DNA of 35,824 nucleotides from a virus. How positions within the stretch are numbered: the first letter of the stretch is position 1; each line of letters starts with the position of its first letter. The stretch covers positions 1 through 35,824 of IMG/VR virus record IMGVR_UViG_3300018421_000088. The stretch is one strand, 5' to 3'. A model generated the notes under the pieces. The model ran no database searches and was not told the DNA's origin. It worked only from the letters and a program-made list of their open reading frames with translations. The translations under genes and the position numbers were made by a program. Positions 13,101-31,116 of the stretch are shown here, piece after piece.

Positions 13101-13390
13101 TGGCACACGATGCACGTAAAAAGGCTATGTTAAAAAAACACGGACTATCAGGTGTCAATAAACCAAAACGTACTCCTAAGCATCCTAGTAAATCTCACGT
13201 TGTTTTAGCACAAGAAGGTCATAAAATAAAGTTAATTAGATTTGGTCAGCAAGGTGTTAGAGGTGCAGGTAAAAATCCTTCATCTGCTAAACAAAAAGCT
13301 AGACGTAAAAGTTTTAAAGCAAGACACGCTAAGAACATTAAGAAGGGTAAAATGTCCGCAGCCTATTGGGCTGATAAAGTAAAATGGTAA
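13100..13390 (+). CDS. Conserved small basic phage protein (IRFGQQG...SAAYWADKVKW family)
   Basis: 96 residues. The core HKIKLIRFGQQGVRGAGKNP and the C-terminal RKSFKARHAKNIKKGKMSAA followed by YWADKVKW are hallmarks of a small protein common in phages of marine bacteria (DUF6321-like by memory). The N-terminus has Lys-rich helices. Encoded directly before the terminase with a stop/start overlap. Function unknown; possibly a virion or DNA-binding component. Confidence 0.65.
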   Translation: MAHDARKKAMLKKHGLSGVNKPKRTPKHPSKSHVVLAQEGHKIKLIRFGQQGVRGAGKNPSSAKQKARRKSFKARHAKNIKKGKMSAAYWADKVKW

Positions 13391-15297
13391 AAAATATAAT
13401 CTGTATCGCACCTGACTGCGATAAACAGTTACCTGAAGGCAAAACTAAATATTGTAGTGATACTTGCTATAAACGTATATCTCAAAGAATACATAGAGCT
13501 AAACAAAAAGGAGAAACCTATGAAGTACCTGTTAAAGAAATTAATCAACCTAAATCTGCATCTGTCCGTAGAGGTTCTTTGTATGACAAGTTTAGGAATG
13601 ATGGTTATGCTTCTGAACTTATAAAAGATTTAATTACTAGAAAAGAAGTTGCTGATGCATTAGGTTGTACAGCAGGACACGTAGCTAGAATGTTAGCAGC
13701 ATATAGAGAAGATTTAGAAAAAGATATACAGGCAGAGAATTGGGAAGTATCTGATGATGCTAAACAATCTCTTGATGATTTTAAAAACTTTAGAGATAGA
13801 TACTTTTTAACAGAACAAGGTATACCTTTTGAAACAGCAGACTTTCACCACAACTGGATTAAGTCTATTAACAAAGCATTACTTAATGGTGGACAACAAA
13901 TGATACTAAGCCCACCACGACACGGTAAAACAGAATTGTTAATTCACTTTGTTATTTGGCTTATCTGTAGAAATCCTAACATAAGAATTATGTGGGTAGG
14001 TGGTAATGAAGATATTGCTATGAACTCTGTTATGTCTGTTATGGATACATTAGAACAGAACGAAAAACTTAAAGAAGATTTTTGTGGACCAGGTGGTAGC
14101 TTTAAACCAGCAACACGTGCAGGTAAGATGTGGTCAAGAAATGGTTTTACTGTATCTACAAGAACAGTATCAGGTATTAAATCTCCAACAATGATTGGTA
14201 TTGGACGTGGTGGCAAGATACTTTCTCGTGACTGTGACTTAATTATTGCAGATGACATTGAGGACCATAGCTCTACTATGCAACCTGCATCAAGAAACAA
14301 TACAAAAAATTGGTGGACTACAACATTAGGTTCTCGTAAAGAGGAACATACAGCTATGGTTCTTATAGGTTCAAGACAGCACCCAGATGATTTGTATTCT
14401 GCAATATTAGACAATGAGGCTTGGGATACAATAGTTGAAGAAGCACACGATTCAATGTGTGCATTACCTGAACTAGATGAAGAAGAACACGTAGATTGTA
14501 TGCTATGGGGTAGTAAAAGAACTTTTAAATGGCTAATGAACCGTAAAAGAGATTCTATGACTACTGGTGGTTTAAAGAATTTTGAAATGGTATATCTTAA
14601 TAAAGCATTTAGTGAAGCTGCAAGATTGTTTAATCCTGAACAAATATCTAAATGTTACGATATCAATATGCCTTTAGGTACAATACCTTCTGGTTCTTAT
14701 TTAGTTGCAGGACTTGACCCTGCTGCTACAGGTTATCAAGCAGGTTTCTTATGGGCAGTAGAAACTAAAGCTGGTGAAATTAATATGACAATGGTTGATT
14801 TAGACAACAACTTAGGTGGTGGTCTAGATGAAGCATTTGAATTAATTAAAAAATGGTGGGATATGTATGGTTGCTACCATTGGGTAATTGAAGAAAATGG
14901 ATTTCAAAAAGCAATAAGACAAGATAAAACTATTAAACAGTTTTGTAATGTACAAGGTATAAAGCTAGAAGGACACGAAACTCATAAAAACAAATGGGAT
15001 GAGAGATTTGGTGTTACTTCATTAGCACCTATGTTTAATGAACAATTAATTACATTACCTTATATGGATGCTGAAGCTCAAAGTAAAACAACATTGTACA
15101 CAAAACAATTAACTTACTTTGCATCTAAAGGTAAAGGTGGCAGAGGATACAAGTCTGATATTGTTATGGCAAGTTGGTTTCCAATGAAAGTTATTAGAAC
15201 CTTGACAAAACTAACTCACGCTGATATGGGAATTGACTACACTCCTAGCTTTGAAGGTTATAATAGTGTAGAATGGAATGAAATACCCTGGAGATAA
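13384..15297 (+). CDS. Large terminase subunit (TerL) with N-terminal zinc/HTH extension
   Basis: 637 residues. Residues 1-40 carry a zinc-finger-like CIAPDC...CSDTC and a basic helix; about 85-110 hold a helix-turn-helix (TRKEVADALGCTAGHVARML), the kind of DNA-recognition domain usually supplied by a separate small terminase. The motor follows: Walker A SPPRHGKTE (176-184), Walker B LIIADDIED (286-294). The RNase-H-like nuclease has acidic residues Asp445 (AGLDPAATG), Glu503/504 (VIEENG) and Asp592 (YKSDIVMAS). It packages DNA into the prohead at the portal using ATP and cuts the concatemer. The extension could replace a missing small terminase: no separate TerS is seen in the neighbourhood. 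Confidence 0.93.
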   Translation: MVKNIICIAPDCDKQLPEGKTKYCSDTCYKRISQRIHRAKQKGETYEVPVKEINQPKSASVRRGSLYDKFRNDGYASELIKDLITRKEVADALGCTAGHVARMLAAYREDLEKDIQAENWEVSDDAKQSLDDFKNFRDRYFLTEQGIPFETADFHHNWIKSINKALLNGGQQMILSPPRHGKTELLIHFVIWLICRNPNIRIMWVGGNEDIAMNSVMSVMDTLEQNEKLKEDFCGPGGSFKPATRAGKMWSRNGFTVSTRTVSGIKSPTMIGIGRGGKILSRDCDLIIADDIEDHSSTMQPASRNNTKNWWTTTLGSRKEEHTAMVLIGSRQHPDDLYSAILDNEAWDTIVEEAHDSMCALPELDEEEHVDCMLWGSKRTFKWLMNRKRDSMTTGGLKNFEMVYLNKAFSEAARLFNPEQISKCYDINMPLGTIPSGSYLVAGLDPAATGYQAGFLWAVETKAGEINMTMVDLDNNLGGGLDEAFELIKKWWDMYGCYHWVIEENGFQKAIRQDKTIKQFCNVQGIKLEGHETHKNKWDERFGVTSLAPMFNEQLITLPYMDAEAQSKTTLYTKQLTYFASKGKGGRGYKSDIVMASWFPMKVIRTLTKLTHADMGIDYTPSFEGYNSVEWNEIPWR

Positions 15298-17034
15298 ATG
15301 AAACCTCAAGACATAATTGAAAGAGCTATTCATCTTAAAAGAATGCACGATGATTCTTTAGTAGATAGAAGTAGATTCAGAGCAATATTAAATGGTGGCG
15401 AAGATGGAATTAGACAATTACTAGGTCCAGGATTAGATAACAATGAAGCATATACAATACCTGCTCCAAACTTATTGCTATCTGCATTAGATAGACTTTC
15501 TCAAAAAATAGGTAAAGTACCTTCTTTAGATGTACATATTACAAATGCAAGAGATTCTGCAAGAAATAAAACTAAGAAAGATAAATTAGAACGAATTATT
15601 AGTGCATACGATAAAATGCAAAGACTAGAGTTACAGCTACCACAAGTAGCTAGATGGTTACCAGGTTATGGTTTTGCTGTTTGGGTTATAACATCTAAGC
15701 CAGATGCTAATGGAAATATGTATCCTTGTGCCGAACTAAGAAATCCATATGATTGTTTTCCTGGTTATTACGGTAATATGCAAGAACCACAAGAATTAGC
15801 AATTATACAAAAAGTACCTGTAAAGAACTTAATAGCAATGTATCCAGAATTAAAGAGCTGGTTTGAAAGTTCTGATGATGAAAAAGATTCTTTTGATAGT
15901 TATAACTTAAATTATACAGATGACGGTAGTTGGGAAAACTCTAACGAGAATGGTGATGTAATTCTTGAGTATATGAATATAGAAGGTACATACGTTGTAC
16001 ACGTTGCATCAAAGAAAATTGTAGATTTTGTACCTAATCCTCTTAAATCAGGACCAGCATTTGTTATTGCAAAAAGATTTAGTTTTGATAGATTGCAAGG
16101 ACAGTTTGACCAAGTAGTAGGACTTATGGCATCTATGGCAAAGATAAATATTTTATCTGTAATTGCTATGGAAGACGCTGTCTTTACTGAAACTAACATA
16201 GTTGGTGAAATAGAATCAGGACAATATAGAAAAGGCAGAAATGCAATAAACTATTTAACACCAGGTTCTCAAGTAGTAAAACCTACAACTAACCTACCAT
16301 ATCAGTTGTTTGAAGCTGTAGGTAGATTAGAAAGGCAACTAAGAGTTGTTGCTGGATATCCAGTTCAGGACGATGCTATATCACCAAACTCATTTGTAAC
16401 AGGTAGAGGTCTGGAAGAACTGGAGTCTGGCGTAGGTGCAATGGTAAATGAATACCACACAATATTAGAATATGCTTTACAAGAAGTAGATTCTAAAAGA
16501 CTTGAGTTAGATGAAGTATTATTTGCTAATAACAGAAAACCTATATCAGGTACATACAAAGGTGCTGCTTTTTCTGAAAGCTATACACCTTCAACAGATA
16601 TTGATAAAAACTATGTAACAAGAAGAAAATATGGTGCTATGGCATCATTTGACGCTCCAAATAAAATTGTTACTGGTTTACAGTTATTACAAGCAGGTAT
16701 CATTGATAGAGAAACTATGCAACAAGAAATGGATGGTTTAGAAAACTTAACTCAAATCAATGAAAGAATTACAAAACAAAGAACAGAAGAAATTCTATAT
16801 CAAATGTTATTACAAAATTCCCAACAAGGCGATAAAGCAGCAATGATGGCTGTAGTAGAAATATATAACAGTCCAAAACAAATGGGCAGTATTTTAGATA
16901 AATACTTTACTGCTCAAGGTGAAGAACCTAGTCCTGAAGAGCAAGCGTTAATGCAAGCTGCACAACAGCAACAAGCACAAGCTCCTCAAGGTCCACCTAA
17001 CTTAGCAGCATTACTAGGAGGTGCAGGTGGCTGA
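15298..17034 (+). CDS. Portal protein
   Basis: 578 residues, directly after TerL with GGAG before the ATG. Typical features: helical N-terminus, the segment WLPGYGFAVWVITSKP and a YPCAELRNPYDCFPGYYG region (about 135-160) seen in portal proteins of this size, a long central helix region with MASMAKINILSVIAMEDAVF (about 278-297), and a Gln/Ala/Pro-rich C-terminus (QQQQAQAPQGPP). A dodecameric ring at the head vertex through which DNA is packaged and ejected. Identification rests on position, size and the overall pattern. Confidence 0.82.
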   Translation: MKPQDIIERAIHLKRMHDDSLVDRSRFRAILNGGEDGIRQLLGPGLDNNEAYTIPAPNLLLSALDRLSQKIGKVPSLDVHITNARDSARNKTKKDKLERIISAYDKMQRLELQLPQVARWLPGYGFAVWVITSKPDANGNMYPCAELRNPYDCFPGYYGNMQEPQELAIIQKVPVKNLIAMYPELKSWFESSDDEKDSFDSYNLNYTDDGSWENSNENGDVILEYMNIEGTYVVHVASKKIVDFVPNPLKSGPAFVIAKRFSFDRLQGQFDQVVGLMASMAKINILSVIAMEDAVFTETNIVGEIESGQYRKGRNAINYLTPGSQVVKPTTNLPYQLFEAVGRLERQLRVVAGYPVQDDAISPNSFVTGRGLEELESGVGAMVNEYHTILEYALQEVDSKRLELDEVLFANNRKPISGTYKGAAFSESYTPSTDIDKNYVTRRKYGAMASFDAPNKIVTGLQLLQAGIIDRETMQQEMDGLENLTQINERITKQRTEEILYQMLLQNSQQGDKAAMMAVVEIYNSPKQMGSILDKYFTAQGEEPSPEEQALMQAAQQQQAQAPQGPPNLAALLGGAGG

Positions 17035-17569: not shown

Positions 17570-20500
17570 ATGGCGTGGGAGTGGAGCTTTACATCACCAT
17601 ATCAAGATGCTCTTGATTCTGACTTTGTAAAGCAAAGAAAACAACAAGCACAAGAACTTAGAACTTTTTTTTCTCAAAACAATATAGCTGAAAACTTAGC
17701 TGGTATATCACAACAATATGGTTATCTACCACGTGATGTTCAAGTTGGTGCTGCTATGGTTGGTTTGACAAAAGAAAGTCCAGAGTTTACTTCTATTATT
17801 GAATCTTATTTAGATAAAGAAAGAAGTTGGTGGGAAGGTGTTAAGGCAGCAACAAGAGGTGCTGTACGAGGTGCTTTTGTTGGTATGGAATCTGCTAGCC
17901 AATTTGTTAAAAGATATGGTACTGCAGGTATGCGTTATTATTCTAAGAAACAACAAAACCCTTTATTATTTTTTAGTGGTATTGGTACTGCAGCAGCTTT
18001 AATAAATCCTGATTACTATAACGAAGTTAAGAATGTATTTAAAGAAACAGGTCCTACATTAGCTGGTAGAGCATTTAAAGAAATAAGTAAAGGCAATAGA
18101 GTTAATTTAGGAGAAGGATATTTTGGTAATTCTACATTAGCTGAAGATACAGAAGTTTATAAAGAACTTGTTGGTAGAGGTGCTGATGCAGAGCAAGTTA
18201 GAGAAATAATACAAGAACAATTAGGAACACCATTATCACAACAAACTATTGATGATAGGGAAAGAGCTGCTATGTCTTATTCTGGTAGAAGAGGCACAGT
18301 TAAGTTATCTCCTGGTCGTGTTGCTGCAGTAGAAATATTTGAACCTGGAACAAAAGCATTTAAGTTTATGTCAGGTCTTATTGATGGTGCATACACAATA
18401 TTTACAGACCCTTCTACTTATTTTGGTATGGGTTTGTCTAGAGCAGGAAAAGTTGCAAGAACATACAATCCTACAGTAGTAAATCAAGGTGGACTTATAA
18501 ATAAAGCTGTAAGAGCTACTGTACATCAACCTACTGCAAAAGAATTTATAAATAGCAGAGTAGGTACAGATATTGCAGACTTACTAGCTAAGACAACTAC
18601 TTATGATGAAGTTGAAATAATTCTTAAAAAGAATGCTCGTGAAATGAATGATGGTGCATTATTAATGAGAAATCTTAGAGATACTAAAGATACAGAAACT
18701 ATTAAGAAATTATTGATTGATGCTATTGAAGATGATTTGAAATTTAACACAAGATTAGATGCAAACTCTTTGTTGTTTAAAGGTAAGTTTTCTAGAGCAG
18801 CAGCAAAAGCATTTTATGGACCAGACGTTTCTGCTGTTGGTTTTAAGACAGCAATGAAATTAAGAAATCAAAACAGTAAATGGAATCGATTATTTCAAGA
18901 ATTTCCTGCTCCTAAATTACACGCTAATGATTTAAACCAAACATTTTTTGAATTAAAAGACTGGATGAAATTTGCAAAAGTAGATGATGATGTTGCTTTT
19001 AAAGCACTAGATGATATTGCTAACAGTATTGATGATGAAGTATTAGACAATATAGCTAAAGCTGGTATGAAATCTGGAGACCCTAGACCTGCTAAATTAG
19101 CAAATGTTGTAAGAGTACTTGAAGTTTTAGGTGGAGAAAATGGTGTGCTTCCTCATATAGAAAAAAAGTTTATGGCTTTAGAGTTGCCTCCAGAACTTGT
19201 AAAAGGTATGAGAAAGTTTATGACATCTGTAGATGAAACAAGAAAATACTTTAGAGGTGCATTTGGAGAAGAATGGTTTCAAGGACAAAAGCTAGATGTA
19301 CTAGATAATTTTGGTAATGATGTTTTATCATTGCAGCTTAATCTTGATGAAGCACTAAAAGTAGTAGAAAAGATTGCAAGTAATGCAGGTATTAAAAAAT
19401 CTGTAATGGGCAATATGAATAAAATTTTAAAAACTGCTAAAGAAGATTTATCAAAAAGAGTAAATGATTCACCTGGTACTGGTAATACTTCTGCTGGATG
19501 GGCGCAGTTTGCTGATGATGGTTTTGAAGTATCTACTGCAGGTGATGACTTTGGAAAACAATTTTCTGCATTTAATGCAAAATTTTTAGATGGAGATTCT
19601 GTAGAACTTAAATGGGCAAAGGCTAAAGGTTACGACAGCATAGAACAAGCAAAAAGAAATCCTGCTGTAGATTCTGATGGTAGACCACTAGAAAATTTTA
19701 ATTATTATCCAGAGTATAAAAAAATATGGAATGCTTGGGCTGATGAAAACCCAGACCTTATTGAACAGTTAGCTATAAAAGCTCAAGGTAAAAAATTAAC
19801 AGATAAATTTGCTAATACAAATAACAATCAAGCTAGAGCATTATCAGAAATAATTAATGAAAGATTTGGAAAACAAAAAATAAAAGATATAAAAGCTGAA
19901 GGTAATCCTATAGCTATGAATAATAAAGTTAAAAATAGAGATAACATTATTTACAACAAAGACACTACAACTTTAGATATGATTATGTCTGGTAAAAGAA
20001 CTCATACAACTAGAACTCTTGCAGGTTATGGTTCATTAGCACCAAGAGTTGGTCAAATAAGATTAATGCAAGATAAAAATACTGGTAGACAAGTTATGGT
20101 AAGAATTACTGGTATTAATAAACTTCCAGATGATTTATTTGTAAATCCTGAATTAGAAGATTTAGCCAGAGAGTTAGCTAAAAAAGAAGGATATACATTT
20201 GAATTTTATCAAACTGCTATTAGTGGTAAATTGCAAAGACAAAAACAAAATAGACTTAGAGGTAGTTTAAAACCAGAAAATGAAATGGTAGGTGTTGAGT
20301 ACGAACTTGCTAGTCCTACAAATATTGTAAAAGACCTAGATAATGTAGCTAGTATTGGTGGATTGAAAGATGAATTTCTAGAAATGGTAGAGCCTGCTGC
20401 AACTATAGATAGGCTTACACCAGAAATGGATATTGTTGTAAAAGAAATAAATAGTGGTGGTCAAACAGGAGTAGATTTAAATGCATTAGAAATAGCATCT

Positions 20501-23500
20501 GATTTAGGTATTGCTACTGGTGGTAAAGGTATGCCTGGATTAACTGTAGCTGACCAGATAATGGGTAGGTATGACCATCAACAAGGTCAATTAATGAAGT
20601 ACAACGTACAAGATACTACTGAAGATATATTGATGGATTTAAAAAATGATTTATCAAACCTTATGCATAGGATTGCAAAGCATAATGAAGGTGTAAATTT
20701 TAAATCTACATTTGATGAATCAAGATTAACACCTGCAGAAATTGCAGCCTACAAAGCTATACAACAAAAACCATTTGACCAAATGTCAAAGATAGAAGTA
20801 GATAGACTTAGAGCAATAGAAATAAAAGCAAAAGGTGGATTTATAAATCAAACTTTAAGTAAAGATGCTAAAAAATCTATTGATGAATATATAAAGAAAT
20901 TTAAAACTGGTGCAGAAGGTGGACTTCTTTATAAACAATATAAACTAGAAGATGAGATAGCTGACTTAACAAAAGAGATAAAACTTAGAAAAGAACAAGC
21001 ATTAAAAAAAGGTGTAATATCTGTTAATGCTACTGACGAAGAAATACAAGAAGTTCTTAAAAATGGTGAATTAGCTATTTCTGCATTACAAAAATTAAAT
21101 GTAAAACTTGAAGGAAAAAACTTTAGAGGTCAAACTCAAGATGGTAAAAGAATTAGAGAACGAGCTATACCTTCTAAAGAGCTAGAGGGTTTACTTGAAG
21201 AAGGTAAAGATTTAGACCAAACAATTTTAGATTTACAAGATAAAGCATCAATATTTAATTTTATTGAAAATCCTAGAATATCTTATTACTTAGGAACAGA
21301 GCCTGGAGTACCTCTTAGTAGAAAAGGTGTAAAAGTAAAAGAATATAAATTTGGTGAAGCAGACTTAGGAATTGCACCTGACGAAGATAAAGCAAAGTTA
21401 GCAGAAAAAGCAGGATATACACTTTCTAAAGAAGATTTAAGACAACCTTCTAAAAGGGTTATTGAGTATGATGATTTTGATATAGATGGATATGTTGAAT
21501 CAGTAGAAGAAGGTGGATTATATATTGCTTCATTGCAAGCTAAGAAATTAAAAAATGTAAATGAATTAAATCGTATACGTGAAGTAATGAAATACAAAGG
21601 TAAAGACGCTGATAGATATCTAACACTTACTGATGAAATAAGAAAATTAGAAACAGGTGATATAGGTTCTATGAAACCCGACGCTAGATACTATGCCAAG
21701 AGAACATCTATGAACGTTGATAACACAGATGCAACAATAGTTTTGTTTAGTAAAAAAAACATACTGCAAGATATAGGAACAGCTAAAACTATATTATATG
21801 CATCTAGGGGTAAATGGGTTGGAGCAAATTGGAAAGCAGAAATAACTAAAAATATTGATAAATATAAAACTGGTGTATTTGCTAAGACTTTAAATAAACC
21901 ATTAATAATTATTGATATGGATAACCCAACATTAACTGATGAGTTTATAGAACAAGCACAAAAACTTCTTAAAGGTAAAAAGGTAAATGTTGCTGGTCCT
22001 AGAAAGTTTACAGATAAAGAATCTATAGAAAGAGTACTAAGACCTTTGTTAGTTAAAAGCAAAGTTCCATTTACTAAAAAGAAAGCTGGTAAAAAATTAT
22101 TAAAAGAATCTAAAGTAACTCCTCAACAGATATTAGATTTCTTTCAAGAAAAAGTACAAGACCAAAGTTTAATGAATGATATTGCTAATTCCCTATTTGA
22201 AGAAGCTAATATACAAAACATAGCAAGAGTTAAAGGTAGACCTACTGCACAGTTAGTTGCAGAGTACCTTGCTAGTGATGCTATACCTATGCCTGATGCT
22301 AGATTATTCCTTAGAGTATTTAGTCCTGCAAGAGAGTTTTGGTTAAGAGCTGCAGGTAAAGGTAAGATGATACCTCAAAGATTACCTGGATTACAAGAGG
22401 ATGAATTTATATCATCACAGTTTGAAAAAGAATTAGCTAAACCTCTTAACAGACTTTATGAACTTACAACAATGGAAGATAAGAAGGTAAGTCAAACTGC
22501 AGAGTTGTTTGTTAGAAATGCACGTAAACAATTTAAATTAACTAAGAACGAAGAAGAAGGTGTAGTAAGAGAACTTACTGCAGGTTATTTAGGATTACTT
22601 GGAGATTCATTTATGAACAAGGCTTGGAAACCAGCAATACTTCTTAGAGCTGCGTGGACATCAAGAGTTGTAGGTGAAGAACAAATGCGTATGTGGATGG
22701 ATAACCTAGACAATGTATTTAGTCATCCTCTCTCTGCATTTGCTTGGATAATGGGTAAAGATAAAAGACGTTTGTTTAATGAAGTAAGAGGTTATGGAGA
22801 TGAGGAAGTTGCAGAAAGATTAATAGCTAAAGGTGTATATGACATTATGGGAGATACATTAGGAGATTCTCTTGAAGCACAATCTTCTTTAACAAAATCT
22901 CACGGTGGTGTATTAGACCCAGAAGGTTTATCTAGGAAATGGTCTTTTGAAGAAGTATCTATTAATGATGATAAGTTTATACCAGGTGCTGCTTCAGAGT
23001 TACTTCAGTTATCTGATGACCCATTAACTGCTGAAATAGCATACAGACTTACTGGATTCAATGGAACATTTAGAGGACAGATAATAGAACAAAAACAATT
23101 TACACCACAGAAAGTAAAAAACAATCCTAACAAAATATTTGTATTTGGAGATAACATAGCTGGTACTGGTAAAGGTGGTCAAGCAGTTATTAGAGGTAAT
23201 CCTAATATTATAGGAATTCCAACAAAACATTCTCCTAGAAAGTTTTTTACTGATGATGATTATGAGGTAGCAGTAGAAGCTATTGATAAAGCATTAGCAG
23301 AGATAGATGATGCTAGAGGTTTAGGTAAAGTTATTGTATTACCTAAAGATGGTATAGGTACAGGGAGAGCAGGACCTAAAGACCCTAAAACTGGTAAGTA
23401 TACTGGTTTAGAAAAACAAGCTCCAAAAATAAATGCTTACCTTCAAAAAAAACTTAAAGAATTAAAAGCAGAAAAAACAGATGCTGTATTAGATGATGTT

Positions 23501-26125
23501 ATGTCTGCTGAAGATGCAATACAAAGTATTAAAGATGATTTCTGGCAAGGACCATTAGACTCCTGGCGTAGAGCTATGACCTATGGAACAGATGAAACTG
23601 CTAAATATCAAAAATCTAAAATGCTTACAGATAGAGCAGCAGCAGATGCATACATAGAAGGTTTAGTAGCTAGGTTACATTATAAGACTGGTGGACATTA
23701 TAAAACATACGAAGAGTTTTCTGATGGCTCTAGAAAGTTGTTAAATGATAGTCAAGCTCCTACACCTGCTGATAGTAGAAGTACATTTGAATCTATAATT
23801 AGACACGAAATCACATTTCCTGGTGATGATGAATTAATTAGACACGTTGCTTTTGGTAAGAAAGTACAAGCTGCTAGAGAAGGAGTACCTAAAGGAGAAC
23901 CTGCTTTATTAAGACTTGGTGTTAAAAAAGATGGAACTATTGATTATGTAACTTGGGGTAGAGGACAAACTATTGATGACCACGCTAAATATAAGAAATG
24001 GTTAAGAGCTAAGAATAAAAATGAAAAGACTTATGATGTTGGCCACGTTATGAAGAAGTCTATTCACGATATGAATGCAGAAAGAATTAATAGATATGAC
24101 CAAGTAATTGAAAGTATGTTTACTGCTTTTATGGCTGTACCTACAAATAGATTATCTCGTTCCTCTGCATTTAGACAATACTACTGGAGATTTATTGAAG
24201 AGAATGGTGCTTTCTATGACAATGCATTAAAAGATGAAATTATTGAAAGAGCTAATATGCAAGCATCTAGATGGGTAAAGAATGCTGGTTCTACAGCTAA
24301 GAAACTTAAATCAACTAGACAAATTAAAACTGAGGATGGAAGAGTTTTAGGTATAGAAAATATTGCAGAACTAGATGAAGCTGCTAAAGCATATGCATTA
24401 ACAGAAACAAAAAGACTTCTTTATGATTTAAATAAACGACACGTTGTATCTGATATGTTAAGACTTGCATTCCCATTCGCAGAAGTTTATCAAGAGATTA
24501 TTGGTACTTGGGGTAGATTAATTAATCAGCAAAAGTTACTAGCTGGTAGAAAAGTACAACGTGTTATTACTGGTGCTAGAAACACTAATGAAGAAGGAGA
24601 AGAAGGTTTCTTTCATACAGATGAAATGTCTGGAGAAGAAATGTTCTTTTTTCCTGGAACTGAATTATTAACTAACTGGATGTTTGGAGAAGATGAAAAT
24701 AGAATTATTAACAATCCAACAACAGGACAACCTATGGAAGCACCTGATGTAAGAGTAAAACTGGAGGGTTATGCTTCATCACTTAATATGGTCGCAGGTA
24801 ATCCTGTTCCTGGTTTAGGTCCATTAGTTGCAATACCTGCAGGTAAGTTACTACCTGATACAGAACTAATAGACAAACTATTCTTTCCATATGGTAGAGA
24901 AGAAGGTTCTGCTTTAAGTCCTTACACATTCTTAGAACAAACAATACCTTCTTGGTTAAAGAAACTATTAGCTATGGGTAGTGCAAGTAGTCCTGATATG
25001 AAGAGAACATATGCAAATACATACAAAGATGTTTTAAAGATGTTAATTACTACTGGTCTTTATGATGACTCTACTAAAGCAAAACAACAAGATGCTATGA
25101 ACAAAGCAAAAGATATTGCTAATAGAATGACTTGGATTAGAGCTGCTGTACAGTTTGCTGCTCCAACAGGTGCTGTAGTTAGATACGAAATAGAAACAAC
25201 ACCAGGTGGTGCATTGTATTTAGACCCAGCAGAATTTAAAGAGAATGACCCAGATGGATATTACTTTGGTATGTCTATATTTGCAGATGCATATTACAGA
25301 ATATTAGCTAAATACAAAGGTGACCAGTTAGCTGCTACTACAGAGTTTGTTAATCAGTTTGGTATTGACCCATCTGCATTACTTACTTCTAAGTCAAAAG
25401 AAATTACAAAGCGTTCATATACAGAAGAAGGTGGTAGATTTACTAGAAGCAATAGTGAAGTATTACAAAGATATCCAAACATTGGATACTATATATTCCC
25501 AGATAATCCATTAGATGAGTTTGATTTTAACTCTTGGTCACAATCATTTGCGGATAGAGATAGAGTTGATTTATCTGAAGATGAATATGTTGCAACTATT
25601 AGAAATGCACAAGGTAGATTAGCTTACGAATATCAAAGAAGAATGTTATTTGACACACCACAATTCGCTAATGTACCAAGTCAGCAGAAGTTTGAGATGC
25701 TTACAGCATTAAGAAACTCATTGAGACAAGAGTATCCTGGATATGGAACTACTTCAACAGTACCAACATCAATGGATGTAGATTCAAAGATAAGAGAATT
25801 TCAAGATATGATTGCACAAGATGGCTCAACAAAAGTTAAATTACCTAATGGGCAAAGCCTTGAGATACAGGATTTACCTGCAGTAAGAGGAGCTATAGAG
25901 TATTTAGAAGCAAGAGATAGACTATTATCAGAAGCTAGACTTGTATTAGGAAGTAATGTATCATTACAAAGAGAACAATTAAGTGGAGCTAGAGCTGAAT
26001 TAAGGCGACTATCTCAAGAGTTATTCGCTAAATATCCAGACTTCTACTATGTGTATCTTGATTTATTTAAGTATGAAGTTGAAGAACAATATACAGACGT
26101 TACATTTTACGGAGGTAATTCTTAG
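17570..26125 (+). CDS. Giant probable virion/ejection protein with ASCH-like, split SLOG-like and macro-like domains
   Basis: 2851 residues, in the structural operon between portal and capsid genes, behind TAGGAG. N-terminus (1-750): Ala/Gly-rich segments (about 85-150) then helices. About 795-915 is ASCH/PUA-like: LDMIMSGKRTHTTRT, strands, VGVEYEL. Residues 956-991 (INSGGQTGVDLNALEIASDL and GIATGGKGMPG) match the first half of a SLOG/YpsA-type nucleotide-binding domain. After about 380 inserted residues the second half follows at 1371-1494 (RTSMNVDNTDATIVLFS, KPLIIIDMDNP, VNVAGPRKF). At 1844-1964 lies a macro-like phage domain (KIFVFGDNIAGTGKGGQA, VIVLPKDGIGTG; DUF7831/A1S_2505 type). The C-terminal third has AFPFAEVYQEIIGTWGRL and helical segments like large virion proteins. 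Inference: an internal or ejected virion protein carrying nucleotide-binding modules. Confidence 0.7.
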   Translation: MAWEWSFTSPYQDALDSDFVKQRKQQAQELRTFFSQNNIAENLAGISQQYGYLPRDVQVGAAMVGLTKESPEFTSIIESYLDKERSWWEGVKAATRGAVRGAFVGMESASQFVKRYGTAGMRYYSKKQQNPLLFFSGIGTAAALINPDYYNEVKNVFKETGPTLAGRAFKEISKGNRVNLGEGYFGNSTLAEDTEVYKELVGRGADAEQVREIIQEQLGTPLSQQTIDDRERAAMSYSGRRGTVKLSPGRVAAVEIFEPGTKAFKFMSGLIDGAYTIFTDPSTYFGMGLSRAGKVARTYNPTVVNQGGLINKAVRATVHQPTAKEFINSRVGTDIADLLAKTTTYDEVEIILKKNAREMNDGALLMRNLRDTKDTETIKKLLIDAIEDDLKFNTRLDANSLLFKGKFSRAAAKAFYGPDVSAVGFKTAMKLRNQNSKWNRLFQEFPAPKLHANDLNQTFFELKDWMKFAKVDDDVAFKALDDIANSIDDEVLDNIAKAGMKSGDPRPAKLANVVRVLEVLGGENGVLPHIEKKFMALELPPELVKGMRKFMTSVDETRKYFRGAFGEEWFQGQKLDVLDNFGNDVLSLQLNLDEALKVVEKIASNAGIKKSVMGNMNKILKTAKEDLSKRVNDSPGTGNTSAGWAQFADDGFEVSTAGDDFGKQFSAFNAKFLDGDSVELKWAKAKGYDSIEQAKRNPAVDSDGRPLENFNYYPEYKKIWNAWADENPDLIEQLAIKAQGKKLTDKFANTNNNQARALSEIINERFGKQKIKDIKAEGNPIAMNNKVKNRDNIIYNKDTTTLDMIMSGKRTHTTRTLAGYGSLAPRVGQIRLMQDKNTGRQVMVRITGINKLPDDLFVNPELEDLARELAKKEGYTFEFYQTAISGKLQRQKQNRLRGSLKPENEMVGVEYELASPTNIVKDLDNVASIGGLKDEFLEMVEPAATIDRLTPEMDIVVKEINSGGQTGVDLNALEIASDLGIATGGKGMPGLTVADQIMGRYDHQQGQLMKYNVQDTTEDILMDLKNDLSNLMHRIAKHNEGVNFKSTFDESRLTPAEIAAYKAIQQKPFDQMSKIEVDRLRAIEIKAKGGFINQTLSKDAKKSIDEYIKKFKTGAEGGLLYKQYKLEDEIADLTKEIKLRKEQALKKGVISVNATDEEIQEVLKNGELAISALQKLNVKLEGKNFRGQTQDGKRIRERAIPSKELEGLLEEGKDLDQTILDLQDKASIFNFIENPRISYYLGTEPGVPLSRKGVKVKEYKFGEADLGIAPDEDKAKLAEKAGYTLSKEDLRQPSKRVIEYDDFDIDGYVESVEEGGLYIASLQAKKLKNVNELNRIREVMKYKGKDADRYLTLTDEIRKLETGDIGSMKPDARYYAKRTSMNVDNTDATIVLFSKKNILQDIGTAKTILYASRGKWVGANWKAEITKNIDKYKTGVFAKTLNKPLIIIDMDNPTLTDEFIEQAQKLLKGKKVNVAGPRKFTDKESIERVLRPLLVKSKVPFTKKKAGKKLLKESKVTPQQILDFFQEKVQDQSLMNDIANSLFEEANIQNIARVKGRPTAQLVAEYLASDAIPMPDARLFLRVFSPAREFWLRAAGKGKMIPQRLPGLQEDEFISSQFEKELAKPLNRLYELTTMEDKKVSQTAELFVRNARKQFKLTKNEEEGVVRELTAGYLGLLGDSFMNKAWKPAILLRAAWTSRVVGEEQMRMWMDNLDNVFSHPLSAFAWIMGKDKRRLFNEVRGYGDEEVAERLIAKGVYDIMGDTLGDSLEAQSSLTKSHGGVLDPEGLSRKWSFEEVSINDDKFIPGAASELLQLSDDPLTAEIAYRLTGFNGTFRGQIIEQKQFTPQKVKNNPNKIFVFGDNIAGTGKGGQAVIRGNPNIIGIPTKHSPRKFFTDDDYEVAVEAIDKALAEIDDARGLGKVIVLPKDGIGTGRAGPKDPKTGKYTGLEKQAPKINAYLQKKLKELKAEKTDAVLDDVMSAEDAIQSIKDDFWQGPLDSWRRAMTYGTDETAKYQKSKMLTDRAAADAYIEGLVARLHYKTGGHYKTYEEFSDGSRKLLNDSQAPTPADSRSTFESIIRHEITFPGDDELIRHVAFGKKVQAAREGVPKGEPALLRLGVKKDGTIDYVTWGRGQTIDDHAKYKKWLRAKNKNEKTYDVGHVMKKSIHDMNAERINRYDQVIESMFTAFMAVPTNRLSRSSAFRQYYWRFIEENGAFYDNALKDEIIERANMQASRWVKNAGSTAKKLKSTRQIKTEDGRVLGIENIAELDEAAKAYALTETKRLLYDLNKRHVVSDMLRLAFPFAEVYQEIIGTWGRLINQQKLLAGRKVQRVITGARNTNEEGEEGFFHTDEMSGEEMFFFPGTELLTNWMFGEDENRIINNPTTGQPMEAPDVRVKLEGYASSLNMVAGNPVPGLGPLVAIPAGKLLPDTELIDKLFFPYGREEGSALSPYTFLEQTIPSWLKKLLAMGSASSPDMKRTYANTYKDVLKMLITTGLYDDSTKAKQQDAMNKAKDIANRMTWIRAAVQFAAPTGAVVRYEIETTPGGALYLDPAEFKENDPDGYYFGMSIFADAYYRILAKYKGDQLAATTEFVNQFGIDPSALLTSKSKEITKRSYTEEGGRFTRSNSEVLQRYPNIGYYIFPDNPLDEFDFNSWSQSFADRDRVDLSEDEYVATIRNAQGRLAYEYQRRMLFDTPQFANVPSQQKFEMLTALRNSLRQEYPGYGTTSTVPTSMDVDSKIREFQDMIAQDGSTKVKLPNGQSLEIQDLPAVRGAIEYLEARDRLLSEARLVLGSNVSLQREQLSGARAELRRLSQELFAKYPDFYYVYLDLFKYEVEEQYTDVTFYGGNS

Positions 26126-27540
26126 TGGATAGAGAAGAACAAAAATATCAAGAGTTAGGGTTTACATTAAAAACTATTTTTGATGCTGTTAAAAAAGGAT
26201 TAATTACATTTGATAGTAAATTAATAGAAGGTTTCTTTGACTCTCCACCGCCTCAAAAAATAATAGAAAACATACTTAAGTTAGTAGAACAAGGTGCAGA
26301 AACAAGTGCTATGAAAGCTATAGCTAGCTTTATAGTACCAAATGCTGAAGAAAAAGATAGAAGGAAAAGACTCACTACAGCATTTACATCAGGATTAACT
26401 GGACAAGAACCTGAAGAATTATCAGCAAACTTAGATACTGCAGATATTATTGCAGAAGCAGATGCTGAATATGCTAACTATGTTACCAGTACAGTAGATA
26501 CAACACCTGGTGGTAGAGCTAAAAGAGATTTTCAATTAGGTGCATCATCTAAAGGATTGCTTGATGCTGCATATGCTAAGTATAAAGAAGATGGAGATAC
26601 AGATGCTTTCTTAGAAGTAGTAACATCTGTTGAGTTAAATAATCTACCAGAACTTACAAGTGATAGTACATTCTACCAAAGGTATGTATCACAATATGCC
26701 CCAATGACCTTTTATGGTTTACAAGATGATGTTCAATTATTAAATTATAGAGAAGCTGCAGGTAACAATAAGCTAACTCCTTTGTACAATTATGGATTAG
26801 CTCCAGCATTCCTAGCTGGACTAGACCCTAATAAAATATTAGAAATACAAACTAAGTTAATGGAAGCAGGATTTTTGCAACCTGGTACTTATGTTCAAGG
26901 AGTTATTGGTGAAATAGGAACACCAGGAGAAGATGCTACTATACAAGCATTGGAAAGTGCATTTAGTTATTTAAATACTAAACCTGAATATGGAATAGAT
27001 ATAGATGACTTAGCAGAGATTAATGCTGCTGCTAATGGTGATGAAGGTGCGTTCTTAGGATTTCTTAGAAATTACTTTGAAGATTCAATAGAAGAAATAA
27101 GTTTAAGAGATACTAATCCAATACTTACTGCACCTACATTACTAGCACAAGCAAATCCCGACTTCTTAAAGTTCAATGTAAATCAAACAGTAAGAGATAC
27201 GATAGGTGCTAATCCTAGCCTTAGAGATTATCAAGTTATTTATGACTGGGCAGGTTCAGAGATAGAAAGATTATCTGCTGCTTATGCTGAATCACAAAAG
27301 ATTTATGAACAAGCTAGAGTAGATGTTGCTGCTCAAGCTGCACAAGATAAACTATCTGGTACTGAACAAGATTATTATTTATTACCACCAGCTATGTCTG
27401 ATGCAGATGTATCTGCTGCATTCGCAACTGGATTAGATGAATTTGTATATAATTATTTTAAACCACTTCTCGACCAAGGTAAAGAAGACCAAGCCTATCA
27501 ACAAGGACTAGGAGTAGCTATAGCGAGCTTAAGTAAATAA
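26125..27540 (+). CDS. Hypothetical probable virion protein, 471 residues
   Basis: GTG start with GGAGG 9 nt upstream, directly after the giant gene. Acidic, helical, soluble, without signal peptide. Repeated Ala/Gln/Asp-rich helices, for example ADIIAEADAEYANYV and EIERLSAAYAESQKIYEQAR. No enzyme motif. Its place between the giant gene and a lysozyme-like gene suggests an internal virion or injection-machine protein. Confidence 0.6.
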   Translation: MDREEQKYQELGFTLKTIFDAVKKGLITFDSKLIEGFFDSPPPQKIIENILKLVEQGAETSAMKAIASFIVPNAEEKDRRKRLTTAFTSGLTGQEPEELSANLDTADIIAEADAEYANYVTSTVDTTPGGRAKRDFQLGASSKGLLDAAYAKYKEDGDTDAFLEVVTSVELNNLPELTSDSTFYQRYVSQYAPMTFYGLQDDVQLLNYREAAGNNKLTPLYNYGLAPAFLAGLDPNKILEIQTKLMEAGFLQPGTYVQGVIGEIGTPGEDATIQALESAFSYLNTKPEYGIDIDDLAEINAAANGDEGAFLGFLRNYFEDSIEEISLRDTNPILTAPTLLAQANPDFLKFNVNQTVRDTIGANPSLRDYQVIYDWAGSEIERLSAAYAESQKIYEQARVDVAAQAAQDKLSGTEQDYYLLPPAMSDADVSAAFATGLDEFVYNYFKPLLDQGKEDQAYQQGLGVAIASLSK

Positions 27541-28133
27541 TGGATGAAGATTTTAAAATAACTATAGATAGATTGAAGTATCAACATAATATAGAAGATA
27601 AATATATACCTGCATTAATGATGACAGCTTATTATGAATCAGCACTTGACTTTGATGAAATAGGTTTAAACAAAGATGAAGCAGGTAATGTCGTTAGTAA
27701 GGATATAGGATACTTTCAAATTAATGCTGCTAGTTTTTACGATAAGCAAGGAAATCCAGACCCTACATTAGAACGTTTCTTTTCAAAAATGGGTGATAAA
27801 AAAACATTATCACAAGAACAATTTGAAAAAAAATTATTAGGTGAAAAATATAATACAGCTTATGCTGCTCATATAATTAAAGACTTTCACGAGTATAGTG
27901 TAAAAGACCCATTTGGTAAATGGAATGCATATACAGATTATGTAAGACCATTCTTACAAGGAGAACCTATTCCTGGTAAAACATTAGAAGAACAAGTTAA
28001 TGGTATTAAAGCATATGTTGATGCTTATATGTATTTAAATGATTTAAAACAAATAGAAGAGTTTAAACCTTTTGTAAATAAAAAAGCTAAAGTATTAGAT
28101 GGATTTATGGGAAAGATAAAAAACAATGGTTGA
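27540..28133 (+). CDS. Lysozyme/lytic-transglycosylase-like protein
   Basis: 197 residues. IPALMMTAYYESALD supplies a probable catalytic Glu33 at the end of a helix, DIGYFQIN (55-62) matches the GLMQIN-type motif of SLT/goose-lysozyme folds, and NTAYAAHIIKDF with DPFGKWNAYTDYVRPF provide the later helix and glycine-containing segment. Such domains in a structural operon usually cut peptidoglycan locally so that the ejected DNA or proteins can cross the wall, unlike the amidase used for final lysis at the left edge. No signal peptide. Starts by overlap with the upstream stop and overlaps the next gene by 8 bp. Confidence 0.7.
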   Translation: MDEDFKITIDRLKYQHNIEDKYIPALMMTAYYESALDFDEIGLNKDEAGNVVSKDIGYFQINAASFYDKQGNPDPTLERFFSKMGDKKTLSQEQFEKKLLGEKYNTAYAAHIIKDFHEYSVKDPFGKWNAYTDYVRPFLQGEPIPGKTLEEQVNGIKAYVDAYMYLNDLKQIEEFKPFVNKKAKVLDGFMGKIKNNG

Positions 28134-29379
28134 TAGAGCTTGGAAGTATTCAAATAAACCTACGCCAGATTTAGTATATTACGATGCTGATACTGGACAT
28201 TATTATTATTTATATAGTGCTGGAGATTTCTTATCAGAAGATACTGATGAAGCAGTATATATATCATATGATGTAGGTGTACAAAAACCACACGGATTAA
28301 CTAATGATAGAAAGCTACCTCAAATAGTAACTACTGCACCAGGTATATTACTTGGTCATACTGCACTAACTGCATCTAACATATCTAGTAACTATGACGA
28401 TATGGATGATTTTAATCCTGCTCAAATATTTGAAGAAACAATAGAACTGTATGAAGAGTATGCACCTTGGTTTTATGAAGTAACTAAAGATGAAGAAGGT
28501 AATGTTGTATCAGCACCAGGTATGTCTTTACTACTTGAACACCTATGGTTAAACAGACCAATAGATGAGAATGACCCAAGACTAAAAGAATTAAAGATGC
28601 CTTATACAATAGGACAGATACAGTTTATCAATGCTGGTGGTTTAAAGAACAATGACTACAACACTAACTCAAGGTTAAGAGAACTTAGAGATGCTAGAAC
28701 AGATGAGTTAAATGCAACTCTTACAAAGATTGGTATAAGTGTAGATAGTTTTGTAGAGGAAAACTTTGACCAGTATCAAAATCTTATAGAGCTATATACT
28801 CAAGGTTATTTGAATGCTGCTAACTTAGATGACTTTGTAAAGCATTACACAGGTATAGATGTATTATCTTCTGAAGATAGTAGGTACTTATCATTTAAGA
28901 ATATTATAGAAGAACAAGTTGATGCACCGCTAAAATTTGATTTAGGTTCTTTAGATTTTAGAAAGAGTAAAGAAGCAGACAGACTAGGTATAAGATATCT
29001 TGGACAGCTTAAGTACAATACATTAGATGAAGATACTAAAAAAGAAATAGCATACTTAGTATCTACTGACCAATCTGATGTAGCTGAACAAAAGCTACAA
29101 ACTATATTTGATAGTGACCCATACTTTGAAAGATTTGCAGGTAAAGGATTAAACTACGGACAAGTAGTAGGTCCATACAAACAGTTGTATACTTCTATAT
29201 TTGGAGATGCACCTGATGAAAATGATACATTTATTTATGAAGTATTAGGTATGGGTTTTCAAGAGGCAGGTAAGTTTATGAGACAAAAAGCCTATGAAGT
29301 AGGTAATGAATACTTTGGAAGAACAGTTGCCACAGCTATGAATCAAGGCTTAGGTGGCAATGTGATAAGAGGAATATAA
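28126..29379 (+). CDS. Hypothetical probable virion protein, 417 residues
   Basis: Acidic, no signal peptide, no membrane segment. N-terminal strands (PDLVYYDADTGHYYYLYSAG) precede helical regions with many Asp and Glu residues. A C-terminal motif GMGFQEAGKFMRQKAYEV is a possible contact helix. No family recognised; the operon context suggests a virion component working with its two neighbours. Confidence 0.58.
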   Translation: MVDRAWKYSNKPTPDLVYYDADTGHYYYLYSAGDFLSEDTDEAVYISYDVGVQKPHGLTNDRKLPQIVTTAPGILLGHTALTASNISSNYDDMDDFNPAQIFEETIELYEEYAPWFYEVTKDEEGNVVSAPGMSLLLEHLWLNRPIDENDPRLKELKMPYTIGQIQFINAGGLKNNDYNTNSRLRELRDARTDELNATLTKIGISVDSFVEENFDQYQNLIELYTQGYLNAANLDDFVKHYTGIDVLSSEDSRYLSFKNIIEEQVDAPLKFDLGSLDFRKSKEADRLGIRYLGQLKYNTLDEDTKKEIAYLVSTDQSDVAEQKLQTIFDSDPYFERFAGKGLNYGQVVGPYKQLYTSIFGDAPDENDTFIYEVLGMGFQEAGKFMRQKAYEVGNEYFGRTVATAMNQGLGGNVIRGI

Positions 29380-30470
29380 TGGCAACAAAACCTTTTGTAG
29401 ACCCTAACGCACCTTACGGTGGTAGACAAGTAACTATCTATGGACCTAATGGGGAAGTTACTATTGCACAGCAATTTAGAAGAGAAGGAGAGGAAAAGTC
29501 TGAACTAGATAGATACTTAGATGACTTAGGTTATTCAAGAACAAGACCTAGTTCTGGTACTGGTACTCCATCATCACAATCTACAGAAGATTCAATACAA
29601 TTTACATCAGCACAAGCTCAAATACTTATGCCTTGGCTTACAAAACTTGCACCTGTAGAAGGTAAGAAACTTATAGATGAGTATGTGAAAGGTTATGTTG
29701 AAACAGGTGAGCCTACCTTTGCATTAGCAAAGATGCGTTCTAGTGATAGTTATGAAAAAGTATTTCCTGGTATAACTAGAGACGATGGTTCTTTAAGAAT
29801 GTCAGAAGCTACCTACTTGCAAAACAAAGAAGCAGTACTTATACACTTTAATGAATATGGTATTGGTGGATATGGAGCTCAAGTTATTGATACTTTGTTT
29901 CCTTCATTAGTAGAAGGTAACGTATCTCCAGATGAGATTTCTGCAAGATTATCTGTAACTGATAGGCAATTAGGTAATCTATCTCCTGACCAAAAGAGAA
30001 GTGTATTAAGTGCCTATGAAGAATATTACTCTACAGAACTTGGAGAAGTTATAGAGTTAGATGATGCAGCACTTATACCATTAGTTATTGACCCAGAAAT
30101 AAATGCACAGATATTAAATAGACAACTTAATGTAGCTAAGATAGGTAATCAATATCAACAAGTATCTGGTGCAGAAGCATCAAGGACTGCTATAGAAAGT
30201 TTAGTAGGTGCAGGTTTGCAAGCATCTGAATCTCAAAAAACATTTCAAGCTGCAGTTGATAGGGCTTTAATTAGTTCTAGATTAGCAAGAAGACAACTTA
30301 GGACAGATGCACCTTCAGCTATGGAAATATTAGAATCTCAATACTTAGGTGACTTAGATACAACCCAGCAGTTACAATCTATACAAGCACAAGCTGCATC
30401 AGAATCAACAATACAATTTGGTGCTGCTAAAACTCAAGAAGGTGCAGTAACTGGCTTGACAGAAAAATAA
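29379..30470 (+). CDS. Hypothetical probable virion protein, 363 residues
   Basis: Starts after AGAGGA. N-terminus ATKPFVDPNAPYGGRQVTIY with a strand pair and a Ser/Thr-rich linker (SRTRPSSGTGTPSSQSTEDS), then helices with LTKLAPVEGKKLIDEYVKGY, and a Gln/Ala-rich end (QLQSIQAQAASESTIQFGA). The end of the gene contains the strong promoter of the capsid unit. Function unknown, likely virion-associated by context. Confidence 0.58.
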   Translation: MATKPFVDPNAPYGGRQVTIYGPNGEVTIAQQFRREGEEKSELDRYLDDLGYSRTRPSSGTGTPSSQSTEDSIQFTSAQAQILMPWLTKLAPVEGKKLIDEYVKGYVETGEPTFALAKMRSSDSYEKVFPGITRDDGSLRMSEATYLQNKEAVLIHFNEYGIGGYGAQVIDTLFPSLVEGNVSPDEISARLSVTDRQLGNLSPDQKRSVLSAYEEYYSTELGEVIELDDAALIPLVIDPEINAQILNRQLNVAKIGNQYQQVSGAEASRTAIESLVGAGLQASESQKTFQAAVDRALISSRLARRQLRTDAPSAMEILESQYLGDLDTTQQLQSIQAQAASESTIQFGAAKTQEGAVTGLTEK

Positions 30471-30488: not shown

Positions 30489-30648
30489 AGTGCCTGACAG
30501 GTCGGCAGATTAAATATAGGGCTGTAAATGCGATAGCACCACCAAGGTGTGTTATCTGGCGTTCGTAAACCCTTGTGTAAAATCCCTTTAATTACCTAGC
30601 GATTAATACTATGGGATATTTTATATGCTAGAGAAGATGGAGATAATA
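30489..30648 (+). ncRNA. Structured 5' leader of the scaffold-capsid mRNA
   Basis: 160 bases, no convincing ORF; an in-frame ATG at 30625 has no RBS. Stems: TGCC/GGCA at the 5' end; AGGG (30518-30521) with CCCT (30570-30573), enclosing GATA-CACC/GGTG-TATC; TAAAATCCC (30578-30586) with GGG..ATTTTA (30613-30623, 2-nt bulge). The last stem ends 15 nt before the GGAG of the scaffold gene. A leader this long is unusual here, where other starts are short or leaderless. Could stabilise the mRNA or regulate translation. Confidence 0.5.
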
Positions 30649-31116
30649 ATGGAAGAAATACAACAAGAGATAAATACTACAGAATCAATAGATGATTCTA
30701 CTGATGGTATTAAACAACTTAGAGAAGAGTATAAAAAGCTAAAGGCAGAGAACAAACAGTTCAAAGCTAGTGCTATGAATAATGCTTTAAGTTCTTTAGG
30801 ACTACAAGCAGATAAAGGTATAGGAAAAGCTGTTACAAAACTCTATGATGGTGATGTCAGCGTAGAAGCAATCAAAGAATTTGTTGCTCAAGAGTTTGGA
30901 GAAGTTAGTAGTTCTGAACAACCTAGCAATAATGTAACTAATAATGTAGTTGAAGCTCAATCTAGAGTTGAGCAATTAAATCAACTTGGTGTAAATGCTG
31001 AACCTACTGATATAAGTCAGGAGTTTAGAAAATTCGTTAGTAATCCAGACATAAGTACAAGAGATAAAATCAACGCAAAACTGCGTATGATTGATACTTT
31101 AAAAGACAATAAATAA
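30649..31116 (+). CDS. Capsid scaffolding protein
   Basis: 155 residues from ATG 30649, which has GGAG 6 nt upstream; the in-frame ATG at 30625 would add eight residues and lacks an RBS. Highly charged and helical. A coiled coil at about 18-38 (GIKQLREEYKKLKAENKQFK), an acidic centre with ALSSLGLQADKGIGKAVTKL, a Ser/Asn linker, and a C-terminal helical segment (FRKFVSNPDISTRDKINAKL) that probably binds the capsid shell. Directly before the major capsid gene, the normal place for a scaffold that guides prohead assembly. Confidence 0.75.
   Translation: MEEIQQEINTTESIDDSTDGIKQLREEYKKLKAENKQFKASAMNNALSSLGLQADKGIGKAVTKLYDGDVSVEAIKEFVAQEFGEVSSSEQPSNNVTNNVVEAQSRVEQLNQLGVNAEPTDISQEFRKFVSNPDISTRDKINAKLRMIDTLKDNK

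Follow-up and report, generated by a model that had tools for sequence, protein, structure and literature searches.

Exchangeable small domains occupy fixed slots of a giant phage protein, a putative internal virion protein

Polyvalent proteins, defined in 2017, are large injected multidomain proteins of phages (Iyer et al., PMC5512222). Head-packaged domains linked to NAD and ADP-ribose (ADPr) were surveyed in 2022; the viral SLOG, Macro, NADAR and Nudix domains are typically standalone, viral YpsA-type SLOG domains are predicted to act on ADPr-type signals, and DUF4326 is predicted to process ADPr phosphates (PMC9503650). Among ejection and cargo proteins, the T7-type ejectosomes include a peptidoglycan-degrading domain (PMC11440229), and the crassvirus cargo proteins, of 262-277 kDa, are present in the virion at ~6 copies (PMC10172136). 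Here we analyze a 35.8-kb virus record (IMG/VR IMGVR_UViG_3300018421_000088, positions 1-35,824; hereafter the window), which encodes a giant open reading frame (ORF). We find that the giant protein is built of a conserved chassis in three parts, called bbN, bbMid and bbC, that carries four modules: phrog_9995, ASCH, a cpYpsA SLOG domain and DUF7831. Relatives of the protein carry other combinations of modules in a few fixed slots, and we are nearly certain that this chassis-and-slot architecture is real. The coordinates are collected in Table 1.

The giant ORF is not a one-off assembly join, because an identical protein is encoded on a second IMG/VR contig (L002; loci are numbered with the prefix L). 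The module order of the window also appears on further independent contigs at 65-74% identity. With many independent contigs in agreement, an assembly artefact was rejected for the window and its relatives. Performing Pfam, PHROGs and Foldseek searches on the window protein, we found several unrelated domains in one polypeptide; in the whole-protein Pfam scan, only DUF7831 and cpYpsA scored above the cut-off. An original prediction, made from the letters of the window, held that nucleotide- and RNA-type modules are fused in a single structural-operon protein between portal and scaffold genes. Both points are borne out by the 2851-aa ORF with its recurrent modular arrangement in relatives, and by the neighbour matches (portal, phrog_7813 and capsid). 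The fourth module, phrog_9995, had been overlooked and came to light in the PHROGs search.

To see the architecture across relatives, we searched IMG/VR, where 138 contigs matched a C-terminal patch of the protein and 80 were kept, and added one contig in an Actinomycetota metagenome-assembled genome (MAG). Profiles from the window family were used to parse the 73 proteins in which bbN, bbMid and bbC are all present; these formed 28 clusters at 90% bbC identity. Throughout, the order bbN-bbMid-bbC is conserved. Eight arrangements were counted, with profiles that come from few families, and other modules may be unseen. SLOG alone is the most frequent (38 loci), followed by SLOG with ASCH inside the SLOG insert (12) and by chassis with no recognised module (10). 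The window type, phrog_9995-ASCH-SLOG with DUF7831 between bbMid and bbC, is present at 6 loci and occurs once without phrog_9995. The remaining loci have SLOG with ASCH and DUF7831 nested (3), SLOG with ASCH and phrog_9995 nested (2), or SLOG and then phrog_9995 (1). A compact module-free chassis of ~1,720 aa was found at seven loci from five clusters (L130, L131, L132, L134, L135, L137 and L139). No INPHARED phage matched the chassis backbone at the sensitivity used; the modules alone matched there, as separate genes where examined.

A few loci of the census deserve separate mention. The divergent chassis of L133, L136 and L138 have hundreds of unclassified extra residues in or near the slots, which are possible unknown modules. 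At L068, L069 and L119 the giant gene is in two or three ORFs, probably through frameshifts. On the 61.9-kb contig IMGVR_UViG_3300032087_000824 (L014/L057/L058), capsid genes of one family occur twice, as do chassis genes (L129 and L100); the contig is perhaps a join of two virus genomes.

Near-identical chassis differ by a single module at one site. The loop of the SLOG C-terminal part that follows SSKNFLENGKWD is short or empty in L117, holds DUF7831 in L124 and L109, and holds phrog_9995 in L102. All four share the flanks of this loop, SSKNFLENGKWD and later LYQGNIPH (the printed L124 stretch stops earlier). L066 and L092 share 1,300 residues at 87.6% identity, yet the slot between bbMid and bbC is occupied by DUF7831 in the former and by a DUF4326-like domain in the latter. 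Similarly, L064 has phrog_9995 and L129 lacks it, and identity on the two sides of this site is 95.8% and 93.2%. The fewest changes on a bbC tree were three for phrog_9995, four for DUF7831, two for ASCH and one for SLOG; this is a quick tree, in which the placement of two long branches (L133 and L136) is unsure. The phrog_9995 copy of L092 is only 35% identical to that of the window and has the form of the separate module genes, and two separate acquisitions of phrog_9995 are therefore likely.

The sequences of the modules tell a similar story. In close pairs, the ratio of nonsynonymous to synonymous divergence (dN/dS) was mostly ~0.1-0.5 for the modules, 0.36-0.71 for the SLOG insert and 0.10-0.27 for the chassis. 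Thus, the modules change more rapidly than the chassis, with purifying selection on most of them, and such ratios indicate that most of them are retained as functional sequence. One exception is DUF7831 in the L064/L129 pair, where dN/dS is 1.4 but synonymous changes are very few. Parts of the module zone have a synonymous divergence several-fold above the flanks of the same pair: 0.25 in the SLOG insert and 0.17 in DUF7831 against 0.035 in bbC for L064/L065, and 0.36 in the SLOG insert and 0.29 in the SLOG C-part against 0.08 in bbC for L062/L063. This excess argues for exchange of diverged alleles. Allele exchange is also indicated by an 11-residue stretch of DUF7831 (about GPKDPKTGKYT), in which the window agrees with L013 and differs from its nearest chassis relative, L004.

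We then looked at each module. The SLOG call of the original prediction stands, in a domain split by an insert of ~350 aa. PF12694 (cpYpsA SLOG) scored 47.9 bits in separate stretches of the window protein (curated cut-off 26.2; E 1.5e-12), and the SLOG profile aligned collinearly to the solved structure 3imk in three segments, with an insert of ~350-390 residues between the first two. The ligand motifs are intact in the window (SGGQTGxD at ~962-969 and N[VI]AGPR at ~1473-1478). The insert has mostly 20-60% identity to relatives in 50-aa windows. In L101, L108, L112 and L120 the SLOG domain is retained, but its SGGQTGxD is altered (L108, for example, has TGGYYEGVE); these proteins may bind another ligand or none. 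ASCH is a predicted RNA-binding fold. No Pfam match to PF04266 (ASCH) was obtained in the window protein, and weak matches were seen in five of nine orthologues (best E 0.013). Here the predicted structure settles the call: in the AlphaFold model of residues 636-958, the top four PDB matches by Foldseek are all ASCH proteins (3s9x, two chains of 1t62, and 2z0t; E 5e-5 to 1e-2, probability 1.00), supporting an ASCH fold for residues ~790-935 as originally predicted.

The segment first described as macro-like is now identified as DUF7831 (PF25176; residues 1839-1960, 102.7 bits against a curated cut-off of 27, E 1.5e-29), while its macro fold was left unconfirmed. PF01661 gave no match in the window record while controls scored, a deeper profile found no relative in the PDB, and Foldseek gave no macro match for a model with a predicted local distance difference test (pLDDT) value of 52.6, which is too poor to exclude such a fold. 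For phrog_9995 (residues 649-765, E 1.4e-19 in PHROGs) there are weak hints of a relation to NADAR, namely PF22397 at E 0.013 in L040 and, low in the BFVD ranking, a single NADAR protein. As had been proposed, modules of these families exist elsewhere as small separate genes: DUF7831 or phrog_9995 genes stand alone in Caulobacter phage Seuss, Delftia phage RG-2014 and phiKZ. The phrog_9995 match of phiKZ (79900-80268) lies amid structural head-protein genes and is longer than the annotated PHIKZ082.1. Folds resembling phrog_9995 also occur within giant proteins in BFVD, among them a protein of uncultured phage cr272_1. At L044 (4999-12525), a giant ORF of 2499+ aa, which exceeds the locus and has no chassis match, bears phrog_9995 and DUF7831; by eye, it adjoins von Willebrand-type and AAA genes. 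Pfam detected no DUF4326 in L092. We call its slot domain (~120 aa) DUF4326-like on the strength of 53% identity to part of the L049 module gene, a 1388-codon open frame in which PF14216 (DUF4326) scores weakly (E 0.008, below the cut-off).

The gene order of the cluster is terminase, portal, small ORF, giant, 471-aa gene, variable gene, 417-aa gene, 363-aa gene, scaffold position, capsid, adaptor-like gene, 656-aa gene and fibre. Judged by its motif, the variable gene of the window is probably transglycosylase-like; the gene in this slot is a PF00959 lysozyme in L061, L129 and L071, whereas in L040 and L049 it is a module gene. At six loci (L039, L040, L045, L046, L047 and L049) the part of the giant that is visible showed no module; phrog_9995 instead lies in the next-but-one gene after it, at some loci accompanied by SLOG or a DUF4326-like domain. 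All six belong to the virus group of the window, and the capsids of L040, L046 and L049 are 70-73% identical to its own. In the loci examined, diverged relatives included, the modules are restricted to the portal-to-scaffold cluster. No gene of tape-measure or tail-tube size was found after the capsid gene in L050 and L053, and this gene content makes a short tail likely. The terminase, portal and capsid lean towards actinobacteriophages, and one relative is in an Actinomycetota MAG. A search for WhiB in 17 phage contigs found none. Our guess for the host is a low-GC actinobacterium.

Some further genes were noticed. Genes of 1,500-2,300 aa lie in or near the variable slot of L093 (10427-15106), L100 (11041-16062), L103 (14725-20202) and L131 (12048-18995); mostly they had no Pfam match where scanned, one has SLOG, and they are likely to be further payload genes. 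In the window, the product of positions 11392-11715 is a small protein that matches the SET domain (PF00856, E 3.2e-10), which is unusual for a phage. The adaptor-like gene at 32336-33333 is present as ORFs of 152 and 83 aa. In L002/L060 (18245-19243), it is one ORF of 332 aa, and since that contig encodes the identical giant, the split is probably a frameshift in the window record.

Table 1. Positions of the giant gene, its parts and neighbouring genes in the window
Feature	Coordinates	Strand	Remarks
Terminase large subunit	13384..15297	+	phrog_38 E 1e-59
Portal	15298..17034	+	tblastn to annotated Streptomyces phage portals, E 1e-23
Giant ORF, 2851 aa (chassis and four modules)	17570..26125	+	uninterrupted over 2851 codons
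Chassis part bbN (residues 1-640)	17570..19489	+	kept in 28 clusters; 78% identity to L004
Module phrog_9995 (residues 649-766)	19514..19867	+	E 1.4e-19; cleanly missing in closely related chassis L014/L129
Module ASCH (residues 790-935)	19937..20374	+	Foldseek 3s9x, 1t62, 2z0t; weak Pfam in orthologues
cpYpsA SLOG, first part (residues 945-1015)	20402..20614	+	motif SGGQTGVD; PF12694; 3imk piece 1
Helical insert within SLOG (residues 1016-1364)	20615..21661	+	coiled-coil-type PDB matches; most rapidly changing part
cpYpsA SLOG, second part (residues 1365-1500)	21662..22069	+	motif NVAGPR; includes loop holding DUF7831/phrog_9995 in relatives
Chassis part bbMid (residues 1515-1830)	22112..23059	+	
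Module DUF7831 (residues 1838-1962), bbMid/bbC slot	23081..23455	+	PF25176 E 1.5e-29
Chassis part bbC (residues 1985-2851)	23522..26122	+	identity 83% to L004, 34% to module-free L132/L131
Conserved 471-aa gene after chassis	26125..27540	+	same position in relatives examined
Variable gene slot	27540..28133	+	ES..GYFQIN motif by eye; no Pfam match
Two more conserved cluster genes (417 and 363 aa)	28126..30470	+	
Scaffold-position protein	30625..31116	+	phrog_7813
Major capsid protein, SU10 type	31136..32266	+	PF17236 (SU10_MCP) E 1.2e-46; phrog_1328
656-aa tail protein, nozzle-like by position	33333..35303	+	behind capsid/adaptor genes; homologue in L050

What could such a protein do? We propose, at even chances, that it is an internal virion protein of a short-tailed marine phage, whose conserved chassis with changeable small-molecule domains is ejected at the start of infection. 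The ~1,700-residue chassis bears swappable domains, predicted to bind or process small molecules, in a few fixed slots: ahead of SLOG, within its insert, in a loop of its C-terminal part, behind it, and at the bbMid/bbC junction. Whole domains enter and leave these slots by recombination, and closely related phages therefore bear different payloads. The protein would most likely travel in the head, from which it and its neighbours would be ejected before the DNA or alongside it. Early in infection, SLOG, ASCH, phrog_9995, DUF7831 and the DUF4326-like domain would then bind or degrade host nucleotide signals, or NAD-linked RNA or ADPr products. The absence of a tape-measure gene and the adjacent lysozyme gene of several relatives make the status of an ejected protein plausible. 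Together with the confinement of the modules, the short-tailed gene set and the adjacent lysozyme render packaging and ejection more plausible than the original prediction could argue. Precedents for such a cluster are the T7-type ejectosomes (PMC11440229) and the crassvirus cargo proteins (PMC10172136).

We consider it likely that the giant protein is packaged. Given packaging, the modules probably target NAD or nucleotide compounds of some kind, a theme supported by the predicted ties of the SLOG and DUF4326 families to ADPr signals; whether immune signals in particular are the target is roughly a toss-up. A counter-signal role would be consistent with published predictions for these domain classes. 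More tentatively, we can picture a payload bay fed by recombination, in which the SLOG fold serves as a docking frame that nests ASCH, DUF7831 or phrog_9995, a second bay lies between chassis parts, and near-identical virions deliver different counter-defence domains.

Several observations weigh against the proposed delivery and counter-signalling. No relative of the chassis was detected in PHROGs or, with deep profiles, in the PDB, and homology to known ejection proteins is thus unsupported; as a known ejection protein, the chassis was rejected, having no PDB relative by deep profiles. Hydropathy revealed no strong transmembrane segment. PADLOC gave no match, leaving membership of a defence system unsupported. 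Both phrog_9995 and DUF7831 are without known fold or activity, and the SLOG motifs are degenerate in the L101/L108/L112/L120 clade. Finally, a sponge of few copies would be weak in a large cell. By our own arithmetic, six copies correspond to ~10 nM in 1 μm3 and to ~1 μM in 0.01 μm3 (marine cell volume taken from PMC7771536), and stoichiometric binding is therefore conceivable if the host is very small.

Other explanations were weighed against the same evidence. The protein may be packaged and ejected, but its modules may serve to take over the cell through host RNA or metabolism, for example through NAD-capped RNA, tRNA ends or ADP-ribosylated targets. The supported ASCH fold, with its predicted RNA binding, suits this explanation. 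Phage NAD/ADPr domains have also been assigned to RNA-repair settings (PMC9503650). Yet the frequent gain, loss and allele exchange of modules among near-identical phages suit variable defences more than a constant takeover, and we regard this explanation as unlikely, if still a serious candidate. Doubtful, too, is a protein made late and never delivered, with modules that work inside the cell that makes the virions, where they might sequester nucleotides or NAD-derived signals at assembly. A late-operon position by itself means high late expression, and delivery is for now our reading of the gene content. Late action, however, needs no fusion to a 1,700-aa chassis, and the modules are confined to the internal cluster with its lysozyme gene, either in the chassis or in a neighbour gene.

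The occurrence of SLOG in 21 of the 28 clusters, all except the module-free and two divergent groups, suggests a core job. The modules could be regulatory parts of an ejection machine, where nucleotide binding in the cytoplasm triggers refolding, release or DNA entry. We find this quite improbable, as module-free chassis exist, SLOG is degenerate in some relatives, and unrelated domains swapped at one site are hard to fit to a single mechanical role. We give still less credence to near-neutral hitch-hikers tolerated in flexible loops. The insertions do lie in loops or linkers, and the SLOG insert is fast-changing, but dN/dS is mostly <0.5 in phrog_9995, ASCH, SLOG and DUF7831, the SLOG ligand motifs of the window are intact, and the same few domain families recur.

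If the giant protein is delivered as we propose, one conserved virion protein would serve a phage family as a holder for injected counter-signalling domains, which are exchanged like cartridges. Natural controls for the role of each domain are available in the chassis without modules and in the same-site swaps, and the slot contents of relatives are candidate anti-defence domains and a route to discovering new ones. With this, phrog_9995, an unnamed phage domain, becomes a clear study target.

The concept of injected multidomain proteins and of NAD/ADPr domains was already predicted in 2017 and 2022 (PMC5512222, PMC9503650). Like the polyvalent proteins, the giant is a very long protein of unrelated small domains in a portal-terminase phage, adjoins head genes and has a proposed injection (PMC5512222). 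Unlike them, it has no ART, ArdC, metallopeptidase, methylase or helicase by Pfam, and its domains sit in fixed chassis slots or are nested within the SLOG fold; ASCH and YpsA are unmentioned in the main text of that paper. It shares SLOG and DUF4326-type domains, genes of the head cluster and a proposed counter-signalling with the virion NAD+/ADPr domains (ARTs, Macro, NADAR, Nudix). That network is commonest in myoviruses, (PMC9503650), whereas here the domains are joined and nested in one protein of a phage that appears short-tailed. MuF-type head proteins also join a conserved head-associated part to varying effector domains (PMC5512222, PMC9503650); their C-terminal tip is exchangeable, whereas the giant has internal slots and no MuF match by Pfam. 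The ejection and cargo proteins of T7, PhiM1 and crassviruses (PMC11440229, PMC10172136) resemble our cluster in a peptidoglycan-degrading enzyme, a short tail and very large proteins, a likeness of tail and hydrolase that is here by gene content; no sequence relationship was detected, and nucleotide-signal domains are undescribed for them. The standalone genes of Seuss, RG-2014 and phiKZ are of the same families, but small and separate. In a limited search of open papers, we found no description of this chassis, of fixed exchangeable slots in it or of a SLOG domain hosting others in its loops. The chassis, its fixed slots, the same-site swaps and the domain-in-domain nesting of SLOG appear to be new.

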